A DNA stretch of 64,000 nucleotides. Source: Anaerolineales bacterium (GTDB lineage: Bacteria > Chloroflexota > Anaerolineae > Anaerolineales > Villigracilaceae). The position numbers and the translations under genes were made by a program. This document shows, in pieces, positions 35,530 to 39,411 of the stretch. Below the pieces are notes generated by a model. That model was not told where the DNA came from. It worked only from the letters and a program-made list of their open reading frames with translations, and ran no database searches. Within the stretch, counting starts at the first letter, position 1; every line of letters starts with the position of its first letter. The stretch covers positions 1-64,000 of the forward strand of contig JAGNWT010000003.1 in NCBI GenBank assembly GCA_017985935.1. Reading direction: 5' to 3'.

Positions 35530-36393
35530 TTAGGTGGTGGAAGAAAATCGTTTGGTCGCCTGCTCACTTAGCTCCCAAAGTTTTTTTGCGTTTTCGTCAC
35601 TCACCAGCCCATTGGTTTTGCGGATCTTGCGCTTGACCCAAAATTTTCCGTTCGGTTGCTTTTCGGTCAGTTCATCCGCGAGGAAAACAGCGGTATCTGC
35701 TCCCGCCTGAGGGCTGAACCAATAAATTTTGTCCAGCCAGCTTGAGCGGCTTGAGTTGGCAGATACTCCACGCTGCGCTTTCCCGAAATCTGAACGGATG
35801 AATCCCGGGTGATAGCAGTGAGCAGTGATGCCTTTTGCTTCCACTTGGCGGGCAAGTTCATGCGTGAAAAGGATATTTGCGAGTTTGCTCTTGCTGTATG
35901 CTTTGAAAGAGGTGTATCTGGATCCTTCGTCCATCCAGTCAGTCCAGTCGAACCTGCCCATGAGATACGCGCCCGATGACGTGGTGATGATCCGGCCTTG
36001 AGTCTGTTCAATGAGCGGGAGCAGTTCGCGGGTCAGCAAGAACGATGAGAGATGGTTGATCGTCATGGTCATTTCCCATCCGTCTGTTCCGATCTTGCGC
36101 TCGTTCAGCATCAGCCCCGCGTTATTCCAAAGCACATCCAGTTTTTGAACTTGTGATTTTACCTGCCCGGCAAGAGTGTTGACTTCAGCCAGCGATGCGA
36201 AGTCCCCTGTAACAAGAGACAGGTCTGCGTCTGGCAGAAGGGATTGTAACTCGGCAAGCACGGGGGCGCCGCGTGCTGCGCTGCGGGCATGGAGGAGGAC
36301 TTTCCATCCGCGCCGTGCAAGTTCAATCGCGCCAGCTTTGCCTATCCCTGTGGTCGAACCTGTGATCAAAATTGTTCTTTTTTCGTTTTTCAT
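35530..36393 (-). CDS. Short-chain dehydrogenase/reductase
   Basis: The 287-residue protein has the NAD(P)-binding TGSTTGIGKAGA motif near residue 10, NNAG near 85, and the catalytic Ser in ITTSSGAYL with YSKSK (Tyr and Lys) about 25 residues later. The length and HPGFIRSDFGK segment resemble retinol dehydrogenase-like members. Arg/Lys after the glycine motif suggests NADPH use. The ATG at 36393 has AAAGGA just upstream; an in-frame GTG at 36417 has no such site. The substrate cannot be inferred. Confidence 0.9.
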   Translation of the reverse strand: MKNEKRTILITGSTTGIGKAGAIELARRGWKVLLHARSAARGAPVLAELQSLLPDADLSLVTGDFASLAEVNTLAGQVKSQVQKLDVLWNNAGLMLNERKIGTDGWEMTMTINHLSSFLLTRELLPLIEQTQGRIITTSSGAYLMGRFDWTDWMDEGSRYTSFKAYSKSKLANILFTHELARQVEAKGITAHCYHPGFIRSDFGKAQRGVSANSSRSSWLDKIYWFSPQAGADTAVFLADELTEKQPNGKFWVKRKIRKTNGLVSDENAKKLWELSEQATKRFSSTT

Positions 36394-36485
36394 ATTTTCC
36401 TTTGAATTTGTTTCCACCTAGGGCTTGATGAGTCAAAGTGGGCTGCTCTTACTCAATGAAGCTCTGGAAGGCGGGAATTTTGCTC

Positions 36486-36514
36486 TTGATAAATCGTCCT
36501 GATTCATCTATAAT
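36486..36514 (+). promoter_or_regulatory. Promoter of the alaS leader
   Basis: TTGATA (36486-36491) and TATAAT (36509-36514) are separated by exactly 17 nt. The best purine start is A36523, the first base of the leader ATG, so the transcript is probably leaderless or has only a few extra bases. Confidence 0.85.
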
Positions 36515-36522
36515 GCCGACCC

Positions 36523-36600
36523 ATGCAACAAAACCTCACGTCCTTCGCCGCTCAAGCCGCCGCCGCTACATGCGCGTTATTTGAACCTGCCACGGCTTGA
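36523..36600 (+). CDS. Alanine-rich leader peptide of alaS
   Basis: This 25-codon frame encodes MQQNLTSFAAQAAAATCAL followed by FEPATA and ends at TGA. Nine codons are alanine, including a GCC GCC GCC GCT run at 36556-36567. No ribosome binding site precedes it, but the promoter -10 ends only 8 nt upstream, so leaderless initiation is likely. Its alanine run overlaps one arm of a protector hairpin, and its stop codon overlaps a second arm that can also pair with the terminator. It immediately precedes alaS. This is the expected design of a peptide whose translation senses charged tRNA-Ala. It is likely regulatory rather than functional as a protein. Confidence 0.8.
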   Translation: MQQNLTSFAAQAAAATCALFEPATA

Positions 36601-36646
36601 GACTGAAATTAGAAACAAAAGTCCCGAACCCGACAGGTTCGGGACT
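36551..36646 (+). promoter_or_regulatory. Transcription attenuator (three alternative hairpins) controlling alaS
   Basis: Arm 1 CTCAAGCCG (36551-36559) pairs perfectly with arm 2 CGGCTTGAG (36593-36601). Arm 2 extended, GGCTTGAGACT (36594-36604), can instead pair with arm 3 AGTCCCGAACC (36620-36630), 9 of 11 positions including one G-U. Arm 3 pairs with arm 4 GGTTCGGGACT (36636-36646) as the terminator. A further GAACCTG (36583-36589) is complementary to CAGGTTC (36634-36640). Stalling in the alanine run would hide arm 1, free arm 2 and prevent termination. Fluent translation to the stop would hide arm 2 and allow it. Confidence 0.75.
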
Positions 36647-36653
36647 TTTTATT
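36617..36653 (+). terminator. Intrinsic terminator in front of alaS
   Basis: An 11-bp perfect stem with a CGACA loop is followed by TTTTTATT, ending 52 nt before the alaS start codon. It has A residues on the 5' flank that extend the pairing to 14 bp. Confidence 0.92.
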
Positions 36654-36661
36654 ACCTGGCT

Positions 36662-36670
36662 TGGTATAAT
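36662..36670 (+). promoter_or_regulatory. Possible second, extended -10 promoter of alaS
   Basis: TGGTATAAT lies downstream of the attenuator, 35 nt before the alaS ATG, with no recognisable -35 hexamer. If active it would give a basal, unattenuated transcript. Confidence 0.45.
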
Positions 36671-36705
36671 TCGCCAGTCATTATCATCTTTTGGGAGCAA
36701 TTCGT

Positions 36706-39411
36706 ATGAGCAAAAAACTTTCAGGCAACCAGATCCGCCAGACCTTCATCGACTTCTTCGTTGAGCATGGGCATACGGCAGTCCCGTCCATGTCTCTTGT
36801 TCCGGGCGGTGACGGCACGCTTCTTTTTACCAACTCGGGCATGGTGCAGTTCAAGGATGTCTTCATTGGCACCGACAAGAAGCCCTACACCCGCGCCGTG
36901 GATTCGCAGAAGTGCATGCGTGTGGCTGGCAAGCATAATGACCTTGAAGATGTCGGTCGTGACGATACTCACCACACCTTCTTTGAAATGTTGGGGAACT
37001 GGTCTTTTGGAGATTATTACAAAAAGGAAGCCATTGCCTGGTCGTGGCAATTACTCACCGAAGTGTGGGGACTCCCCAAAGACAAGTTGTACGCGACCTG
37101 CTTTGAAGATGATAAAGGCAATGTTCCGCGTGATGACGAAGCCGCCGATATTTGGAAGGAACAACCCGGCTTTGACCCTTCTCACGTCCTCTTCTTTGGG
37201 CGCAAGGAGAATTTCTGGCAAATGGCGGAGGTCGGTCCCTGCGGACCCTGTTCCGAAATCCACATTGATCTCGGCGAAGAACGCGACAACATGCGCGGCA
37301 AGGAACACCGCTGCGGCGTGAATGGCGAATGCACACGTTACCTCGAGCTTTGGAACAACGTGTTCATCCAATATAACCTGTTCGATGACGGGCGGCTTGA
37401 GTCGCTGCCTGCCAAGCATGTCGACACCGGCATGGGTTTCGAGCGCATTGTCTCTGTTTTGCAGGGCGTGGACTCGAACTACAAGACCGATCTCTTCGCA
37501 GGTTCTTTGGAAGTGCTGCGCTCCCTCACCGGTCACAGCGAAAAAGAGATGCTCGAAAACTTCACTCCATATCGTGTGATCTGCGACCATGCCCGCTCTG
37601 CGGCATTCCTGATCGCGGATGGGGTTGTGCCCGGCAATGGTGGACGAAATTACGTCACCCGCATGATCATTCGCCGCGCGGCGCGTTTTGGCACCAAGAT
37701 CGGTCTGACCGAGCCTTTCCTCGCCAGGGTTGCAGAAGCGGTCATTGCGGAATACGGTGATTTTTATCCCGAGCTCGAAAAGAACAAGGCGACCATTTTA
37801 GATAACCTGACTCGTGAAGAAGTGCGTTTCGCGCGGACCGTGGAAGCGGGTACGGCTCACTTGCAGAATCAACTCGATGAGTTGCGCGCCTCGAACAAGA
37901 CCACCCTCAGCGGTCACAACGCATTTGACCTGTACGCCACGTACGGTCTGCCGTTTGAGATCAGCCGCGACATTGCCCGTGAGCAGGGACTTGATATTGA
38001 CGAAGCCGGTTTCACTGAAGCCAAGAATGAACACGCCAAGGCATCCGGCGGCGGTAAAGCCATGGGTAAACTGGGCGGCGAAGATTCTGAATACTTTGCA
38101 AATATCCTGAAGGATCTGCAAGCGAAAAATAAACTTGGCAAAGACGGCGTGGAGTACGATCCTTACAACAGCCCCAAAGTGGATGGCGAAGTGCTTGCGC
38201 TGGTCGTCAACGGCGAATCCGTTCCCTCCGCCGCGCTCGATGATGTGGTTGAGGTGATTCTGCCCAAGACCGGTTTCTACATTGAGTCGGGCGGTCAGGT
38301 GAATGACGAAGGGTATATCCGCGGCAATGGCTGGGAGATCGAGATCACCGCTGTGCGCCGCGCCGCTGCGGGAGTCATTGCTCACATGGGGCAGGTAATC
38401 TCCGGTCAACCCAAAGTGGGTGACATGGCTGTGGCTGAAGTGGATGTGAACCGCCGCCACAACATTATGCGTAACCATACCGCAACGCACTTGCTCCACA
38501 AGGCTTTACATGAGATCCTTGGCGACCATGCCCGTCAGGCCGGTTCGCTCGTCTCACCGAAATATTTGCGCTTTGACTTTACCCAGCCCGACGGCATGAC
38601 CCCCGAGCAGATCGAGCGTGTCGAGAAGATGGTCAATGAAGCCATTGCTGCCGACATGCCTGTTGTAAAGGTTACCAAGTCGCTTGATGAAGCCAAGAAG
38701 GAAGGCGCGATGGCGCTCTTTGGCGAGAAGTACGGTGAGACCGTGCGGACGGTCTCCATCTTTGAGAGCGAGAATGCCAAATATTCCTACGAGCTTTGCG
38801 GCGGCACGCACATTGACCGCACCTCAGACATCGGCGCTTTCCTGATCGTCAGTGAAGGTTCGGCCGCGGCGGGCATCCGCCGTATTGAGGCGGTCACCGG
38901 GCGCGGTGCATACGAGTTGATCAACAAGCGTTTCAAGACTCTCAAGCAGGCTGCCGGTTCTTTGAAATCTTCTGTTGAGGAAGTGCCCGCCAAGGTGGAT
39001 GCCTTGCAGGATGAAGTCTCTGAACTTAAGAAGGAACTTGCGAGTTTACGCACCCAATCGGCTTTGTCGAATTTCAATGCCCAGCTTTCCAATGTTCAAA
39101 CTGTAAAGGATGTCAGTGTGCTCGGCGTGGAGATCCCCAATGCAGACATGGATACCCTGCGTATGCTGGCTGACAAATTCCGCGAAAAATATCCCAAAGC
39201 GGGAGCGGCGGTCCTCGTAACAGGATCAGGCGTCATCGCGGTGGTGACCGAAGACCTCGTCAAGCGCGGAGTCAAGGCTGGCGATCTCATCACCGGCATT
39301 GGCGGTAAAGGAGGCGGACGTCCCAATCTGGCACAGGGCAGTCTGCCTGATGGGAATGTCAAAGATGCGCTGGGCAAGGTGGCAGGCGCGCTCGAAGCGA
39401 AGTTGAAGTAA
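36706..39411 (+). CDS. alaS: Alanyl-tRNA synthetase
   Basis: AlaS charges tRNA-Ala and edits mischarged Ser or Gly. The 901-residue protein has the class II catalytic core (GNQIRQTFIDFFVEHGHTAVPS, then GKHNDLEDVGRDDTHHTFFEMLGNWSFGDYYKKEA near residues 70-105). The editing domain has the zinc site HTATHLLHKALH near 595 and CGGTHI near 700. A coiled-coil linker is followed by the C-Ala domain with GGKGGGRPNLAQG near 875. GGGAG lies 8 nt before the ATG at 36706. Expression appears to be controlled by the attenuator upstream. A terminator follows at 39414. Confidence 0.97.
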   Translation: MSKKLSGNQIRQTFIDFFVEHGHTAVPSMSLVPGGDGTLLFTNSGMVQFKDVFIGTDKKPYTRAVDSQKCMRVAGKHNDLEDVGRDDTHHTFFEMLGNWSFGDYYKKEAIAWSWQLLTEVWGLPKDKLYATCFEDDKGNVPRDDEAADIWKEQPGFDPSHVLFFGRKENFWQMAEVGPCGPCSEIHIDLGEERDNMRGKEHRCGVNGECTRYLELWNNVFIQYNLFDDGRLESLPAKHVDTGMGFERIVSVLQGVDSNYKTDLFAGSLEVLRSLTGHSEKEMLENFTPYRVICDHARSAAFLIADGVVPGNGGRNYVTRMIIRRAARFGTKIGLTEPFLARVAEAVIAEYGDFYPELEKNKATILDNLTREEVRFARTVEAGTAHLQNQLDELRASNKTTLSGHNAFDLYATYGLPFEISRDIAREQGLDIDEAGFTEAKNEHAKASGGGKAMGKLGGEDSEYFANILKDLQAKNKLGKDGVEYDPYNSPKVDGEVLALVVNGESVPSAALDDVVEVILPKTGFYIESGGQVNDEGYIRGNGWEIEITAVRRAAAGVIAHMGQVISGQPKVGDMAVAEVDVNRRHNIMRNHTATHLLHKALHEILGDHARQAGSLVSPKYLRFDFTQPDGMTPEQIERVEKMVNEAIAADMPVVKVTKSLDEAKKEGAMALFGEKYGETVRTVSIFESENAKYSYELCGGTHIDRTSDIGAFLIVSEGSAAAGIRRIEAVTGRGAYELINKRFKTLKQAAGSLKSSVEEVPAKVDALQDEVSELKKELASLRTQSALSNFNAQLSNVQTVKDVSVLGVEIPNADMDTLRMLADKFREKYPKAGAAVLVTGSGVIAVVTEDLVKRGVKAGDLITGIGGKGGGRPNLAQGSLPDGNVKDALGKVAGALEAKLK

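Follow-up and report, generated by a model that had tools for sequence, protein, structure and literature searches.

The window analysed here, a stretch of 64,000 nucleotides, belongs to a metagenome genome (3.8 Mb, 144 contigs) whose named relatives are Anaerolineales, Chloroflexota. It contains alaS, with ATG 36706 as start codon and a product that shares 85%–97% identity over its first 200 aa with AlaS of the same genus, and a short-chain-dehydrogenase (SDR)-like gene that lies upstream of alaS on the opposite strand (35530-36417). The region leading into alaS carries the following features.

36486-36514, plus strand: promoter P1, TTGATA-17-TATAAT, 11/12 matches; -10 kept in relatives
36523-36600, plus strand: leader ORF, MQQNLTSFAAQAAAATCALFEPATA and a stop, 25 codons, 9 Ala; conserved in relatives
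36547-36567, plus strand: alanine codon run GCC GCT CAA GCC GCC GCC GCT, the putative sensor; conserved as A-x-A-Q-A-A-A
36551-36559, plus strand: arm 1, CTCAAGCCG; pairs with arm 2 (36593-36601), replaced on both sides in relative L143
36583-36604, plus strand: antiterminator 5' side, GAACCTG (outer) and GGCTTGAGACT (inner, equal to arm 2); ACCTG and CGGCTTGAGAC invariant
36620-36630, plus strand: arm 3, AGTCCCGAACC; pairs with arm 2 or arm 4
36634-36640, plus strand: outer 3' strand of the antiterminator, CAGGTTC; 5 of its 7 pairs are invariant, CAGGC with GCCTG in L143
36636-36653, plus strand: arm 4, GGTTCGGGACT, and T tract, which with arm 3 make up an intrinsic terminator; predicted energy -20.2 kcal/mol, compensatory changes
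36661-36670, plus strand: P2, TTGGTATAAT, resembling an extended -10, after the terminator and before alaS; TATAAT near alaS in most family loci
36693-36697, plus strand: GGGAG, likely the alaS ribosome-binding site
36706-39411, plus strand: alaS, alanyl-tRNA synthetase, 901 aa, from translation and AlaS identity

P1 is made up of TTGATA (36486-36491) and TATAAT (36509-36514) around a 17-nt spacer, so the promoter of the original prediction stands with its coordinates, and it was the sole promoter-like site found when 36000-37000 was scanned (0.7 expected). The leader ATG comes 8 nt after the -10 box, which leaves no space for a Shine-Dalgarno sequence, and the RNA is expected to start with the start codon or immediately beside it; the leader ORF is probably translated without a 5' UTR, that is, as a leaderless frame. 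The predicted 25-codon frame with its 9 Ala codons is likewise present at 36523-36600. A run of cognate codons thus sits in a short ORF directly upstream of the cognate gene, arm 1 lies over these codons, and the stop codon (36598-36600) falls inside arm 2, as had been claimed.

The three pairings proposed for this RNA were recovered. Arms 1 and 2 (CTCAAGCCG/CGGCTTGAG in the window) pair at 9/9 positions, with a predicted energy of -17.7 kcal/mol for the 1:2 fold. Arms 3 and 4 (36620-36630/36636-36646) pair at 11/11 positions ahead of TTTTATT, and folding lengthens the predicted 11-bp stem to 14 pairs; in every leader scanned except one, an intrinsic terminator is found between ORF and gene. 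Arm 2 and arm 3 (36594-36604/36620-36630) pair at 9/11 positions; one of these is a G-U pair, and the two mismatches, C.A and A.C, are fixed. This last pairing is as originally drawn, but the antiterminator had been made too short: an outer helix, GAACCTG (36583-36589) with CAGGTTC (36634-36640), encloses arm 2:arm 3 from outside and is fully nested with it. Of 22 relatives subjected to free folding, most gave the nested antiterminator. In the segment that a ribosome on the Ala run would leave free, it is the predicted structure of the window RNA (-18.6 kcal/mol, z -3.8 against shuffles), and it has a mean z of -1.75 over 51 leaders. The 1:2 region is on average weakly more stable than shuffles (mean z -1.1).

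Comparison with relatives places the leader firmly beside alaS. A detector for short ORFs with ATG 6–9 nt after a -10 box was applied to 125 alaS upstream regions of the same family and found a leader in 52, with ATG exactly 7 nt after the box in 39 (6–8 nt in genus leaders). All 52 contain at least 4 Ala codons, and Ala makes up 31% of residues overall. By comparison, 1250 dinucleotide shuffles yielded 9 such ORFs and the reverse strands of the alaS upstream regions yielded 1, none with 4 Ala. The -10 of P1 is kept 6–9 nt before the leader ATG in 52/52 leader-bearing relatives, and its -35 is not conserved among them. Loss of the Ala codons or of stem pairing in relatives had been set beforehand as grounds for abandoning the proposal; both are conserved, as seen in the 52 leaders and in the stems of L143.

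The arms themselves point to the same gene. A two-arm pattern search through 57 genus genomes matched in 22, never more than once per genome, and directly upstream of alaS in all of them except one (L042), where inspection revealed a chance match. Across about 85,000 GTDB species genomes the pattern occurred in 25 stretches, and in 22 of them alaS follows 94–274 nt downstream in the same orientation; the others lie at a contig end (L076) or are chance matches in Paenibacillus (L070) and Saganbacteria (L075). The element is therefore nearly always single and adjacent to alaS. A dispersed terminator repeat was considered and rejected, as a DNA search of the genome matched nothing beyond the locus itself and its palindrome; GTCCCGAACC occurs once in the window, at this locus. 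We also observed in genome G050 a second, degenerate leader-terminator copy (L136, G050:C369:30716-30824) that encodes MQQTFTSSRPLYTRSVTA and a stop, lacks an Ala run, and lies approximately 1.5 kb upstream of the alaS leader.

When a covariance model was run against 400 genomes of the order, diverged relatives were recovered in the same family only, upstream of alaS; weak matches in G366, G153, G044, G067, and G001 are terminator look-alikes that are not upstream of alaS. Four further genomes (G313, G334, G327, and G390) carry a similar architecture in unrelated sequence. In G334, for instance, the leader MNPKPALSASATCPAASAGLPSPLQTELAWA precedes the terminator CCCGGCTCAATCCCTGACGCCGGGATTTTT, both entirely different in sequence. 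Direct reading shows that the 3' part of such leaders again matches both the terminator 5' arm and a stretch of the Ala region, as with GAGCCGG, CCGGCTC, and CCGGCT, respectively, in G313. Across genera it is Ala richness that is conserved and not the peptide sequence (e.g., MNPKPALSASATCPAASAGLPSPLQTELAWA and MFRQMIFQAAAASASAAQIGTVL). Conserved Ala codons and stems, together with the same architecture in a sequence-unrelated lineage, support the 1:2, 2:3, and 3:4 logic of attenuation put forward in the original prediction.

All leader-bearing sequences in the AlaS tree fall within a single supported branch (51/87 rows, against 0/32 in the sister branch), and 53 alaS loci belonging to other families of the order and class yielded no leader ORF. 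Inside its branch the distribution is patchy, with 22 label changes, at least 10 of them forced by supported branches, and repeated loss, regain, or transfer of the leader seems likely. At two alaS loci, L134:1-330 (G051) and L130 (G352), the place of the leader is taken by a small protein ending in LLVLHYEPA[TM]A-stop, which we take to be DUF4926-like; the same terminator follows, and the EPATA-stop end of the leader resembles the tail of this protein.

Within the genus, an alignment of 26 sequences has nearly invariant arms, which limits classic covariation, and none was found there for arm 2:arm 3, whose arms do not vary. For 1:2 and 3:4 together, 96.6% of cells pair and two pairs are changed on both sides; compensatory changes in 3:4 were seen in L033 (A-U) and L046 (C-G). 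In G273 (L143), both strands of the 1:2 stem have been exchanged (CCATCACAG/CTGTGATGG), and the outer antiterminator helix reads GCCTG/CAGGC at the cost of one terminator mismatch. The 5-bp core ACCTG:CAGGT of the outer helix is invariant in the genus and includes two bases of the terminator loop, CA, that have no role in the terminator; their invariance is as expected if they pair in the antiterminator. A mutually exclusive antiterminator is thus predicted by folding and maintained, as judged from the loop CA and from the covariation in L143.

Codon usage in the leader follows the RNA arms. Ala codons outside the arms switch synonymously among GCA, GCC, and GCT in relatives; third codon positions inside the arms hardly vary, with Pro always CCT and the last Ala always GCT (29/29). 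The distance between arms changes in 3-nt steps (47, 50, or 53 nt), L060 being the one exception, and the GAC directly after the leader stop codon is invariant in the genus-type alignment. Genus peptides share A-x-A-Q-A-A-A-(A) and mostly end in P-[AV]-T-A-stop. In L057 and L060 an earlier stop, located just upstream of the antiterminator, removes the PVTA coding and leaves ACCTGTCACGGCTTGAGAC intact; ACCTG and CGGCTTGAGAC are kept in both despite the earlier end of the frame. The conserved arm codons, the bases after the stop, and the intact RNA of these two relatives speak for selection at the RNA level.

We consider it very probable that the region is a leaderless, alanine-specific transcription attenuator of the trp type, acting through its leader peptide and responding to Ala-tRNA(Ala). 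RNA polymerase starting from P1 would produce an RNA with its 5' end at the leader AUG or close to it, and a ribosome would follow. When Ala-tRNA(Ala) is plentiful, the ribosome would reach the stop codon in arm 2 and cover the antiterminator 5' side (36583-36604), arm 3 would pair with arm 4, and transcription would end near 36650. When Ala-tRNA(Ala) is short, the ribosome would stall on GCC GCC GCC GCT (36556-36567) and hide arm 1; a ribosome in this position covers roughly to 36580, and the RNA from 36583 onward would be free. In the stalled state, GAACCTG and GGCTTGAGACT would pair with AGTCCCGAACC and CAGGTTC, arms 3 and 4 would both be occupied, and the polymerase would read into alaS. 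If the leader is not translated, arm 2 would be held in the 1:2 stem and the terminator would form. P2 would probably supply a basal, unattenuated level of AlaS, to which P1 would add an attenuated portion.

In the simplest case of attenuation no promoter lies between terminator and gene, a feature that is not strictly defining; here the promoter-like P2, which the original prediction did not mention, occupies that position. Of 51 leader-bearing loci, 49 have TATAAT at most 90 nt from alaS, as do 69 of the 74 other family loci, and in some relatives inserted sequence of up to about 150 nt separates the terminator from P2. As P2 follows the terminator, alaS can be expressed without the switch, and the attenuator probably modulates alaS as a partial rather than sole control. 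P2 weakens the physiological weight of the switch, not its identity. Along with P2, we counted against an attenuator its patchy distribution, the 2:3 mismatches without covariation in the genus, the weak z of 1:2, and the insertions between terminator and P2.

P2 also lends itself to another reading. Here P1 would drive a short transcription unit of its own, made up of the leader and the terminator, that acts in trans as a small RNA or micropeptide and has a terminated RNA of about 130 nt as its product, and alaS would be transcribed from P2. The presence of P2 in 49/51 leader-bearing loci and the tolerance of the terminator-P2 gap for insertions agree with this, and the terminated trpL RNA of S. 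meliloti is known to act in trans (PMC8546594), so that both roles could coexist. However, a conserved alternative antiterminator pairing would be useless without a downstream gene, the element is almost always single-copy and adjoining alaS, and the ORF is Ala-rich exactly before the alanyl-tRNA synthetase gene, as a similar one is Tyr-rich before tyrS. We regard a separate unit as improbable.

Less probable still, to the point of being quite unlikely, is that stalling on the leader peptide senses something other than Ala-tRNA, as an arrest peptide or a drug- or metabolite-responsive stall would. The AQAAA core and the P[AV]TA-stop end conserved in the genus are what an arrest motif might look like, but the conserved core codons sit in pairing arms, the P[AV]TA end is absent from L057 and L060, and beyond the genus only Ala richness persists. 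A chance short ORF beside an ordinary bidirectional terminator, for which one could cite the terminator-like shape of the hairpin on the minus strand where the SDR-type gene is read, is refuted by the conservation in 50-odd genomes, the lack of any Ala-rich ORF among shuffled controls, and the end of the SDR gene at 35530, far from the hairpin.

Known RNA families were also searched for and rejected. No T-box covariance-model match was obtained in the window, nor at a relaxed threshold in 36400-36760, and no known Rfam riboswitch was matched in this region of the window, whether at the gathering or at the relaxed threshold, or in 20 relatives of the leaderless type. Thr_leader (RF00506) scored 28.7 bits against a gathering score of 55; since it also matches weakly on the other strand, the score reflects hairpin resemblance.

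The attenuator preferred here shares with the trp, his, thr, and pheST type a run of cognate codons, a stop in arm 2, mutually exclusive 1:2, 2:3, and 3:4 pairings, and an intrinsic terminator before the cognate gene. It differs in being directed at alanine and alaS, in its occurrence in Chloroflexota, in its probably leaderless frame, and in the basal promoter after the terminator. Leaderless poly-Cys ORF attenuators in mycobacteria were reportedly described by Canestrari in 2020; these are said to be similar in that a leaderless short ORF with a codon run for one amino acid controls downstream genes, with cysteine and mycobacteria in place of alanine and Chloroflexota. Well-known alaS T-boxes in Firmicutes such as Clostridium acetobutylicum (PMC4695836) have in common the gene, the signal (charging of tRNA-Ala), and the output (antitermination), but read uncharged tRNA directly and without a leader peptide. 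In flavobacteria, a conserved structured 5' element before alaS has been mentioned without further analysis (PMC9723704).

The original prediction held that no Ala leader peptide had been described for alaS, a view that is out of date. In Streptomyces lividans TK24, a peptide named AlaL (22 aa, 6 Ala, MNVIGRNIFATARATSSPVAAA and a stop) lies upstream of alaS (SLIV_01315) and was listed as an attenuator by RNA-seq, the authors calling it previously undescribed in bacteria (PMC8079986). The Chloroflexota leader is not the first of its kind, and the Streptomyces peptide is the single earlier candidate. Both are short Ala-rich leader ORFs before an alanyl-tRNA synthetase gene; they belong to different phyla, and by eye the peptides have no evident resemblance beyond Ala content. 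The accessible part of the report contains no comparative or structural analysis of alaL (PMC8079986), whereas the Chloroflexota leader has a defined switch of terminator and antiterminator, conserved in approximately 50 genomes, and a second promoter. As far as that part of the report extends, what is new here is the phylum and the comparative support beyond the Streptomyces candidate. A full-text search of openly available papers found no case of alaS leader attenuation in Chloroflexota. In 2010, leader-peptide attenuation was not known outside Proteobacteria and Actinobacteria, except for hisS of bacilli reported there (PMC2965389). Such attenuation is documented mainly in these two phyla, and the present locus adds a comparative case in Chloroflexota and, to our knowledge, the first set of relatives supporting an alanine-specific attenuator beyond a single Streptomyces annotation.

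Leader elements also precede other genes of the same genome, and those before tyrS are a parallel that favours attenuation at alaS. Outside the window, tyrS (G000:C79, loci L230/L238) is preceded by TATAAT, 6 nt, and ATG, with the leader MFEKVTTNRYYYYTRP and a stop, which includes YYYY, and by an intrinsic terminator. Seventeen of 30 family tyrS loci have a leader with 2–4 Tyr (YY to YYYY) 6–7 nt after the -10 box, and covariation seems to link arm 2 with the terminator loop (GCGGTGG/CCATCGC, GCGGTAG/CTATCGC, and GCGAGGG/CCCTCGC). The pheS gene of the same genome has an Rfam T-box (L236:2632-2881, minus strand), and the thrS (L219, approximately 560-620) and trpE (L232) leaders contain T-box-like sequences (GGTGGTACCGCG/GGTGGCACCACG, GGTGGNACC). 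Given the Ala and Tyr leaders and these T-box and T-box-like sequences, the genome appears to use both leader-peptide and T-box sensors of tRNA charging. Different sequences have come to carry one switch logic at the same gene, with T-boxes present in the same genome, and how bacteria swap tRNA-charging sensors thereby becomes directly testable. We tentatively suggest, while holding it somewhat doubtful, that several aminoacyl-tRNA synthetases of this Anaerolineales family are controlled by leaderless leader-peptide attenuators (alaS, tyrS), with T-boxes at other genes, and that sensor ORFs are rapidly rewritten or even taken over from the 3' ends of genes upstream. Examples of borrowing would be tyrS in L260-L262, after a frame ending in YYYSRP-stop, and alaS in L130/L134, after the gene ending in LHYEPATA-stop.

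Eight tyrS loci (L241, L242, L246, L256, L260, L261, L262, and L266) have no leaderless ORF and instead have an upstream frame with a Tyr-rich tail. A similar terminator directly follows these tails (YYYSRP-stop, TYYARP-stop), an arrangement in which the end of the upstream gene would seem to act as the tyrS leader. An FMN riboswitch (RF00050) was also noted at L223:236-411 (minus strand), near the tRNA-synt_1 locus G000:C128.
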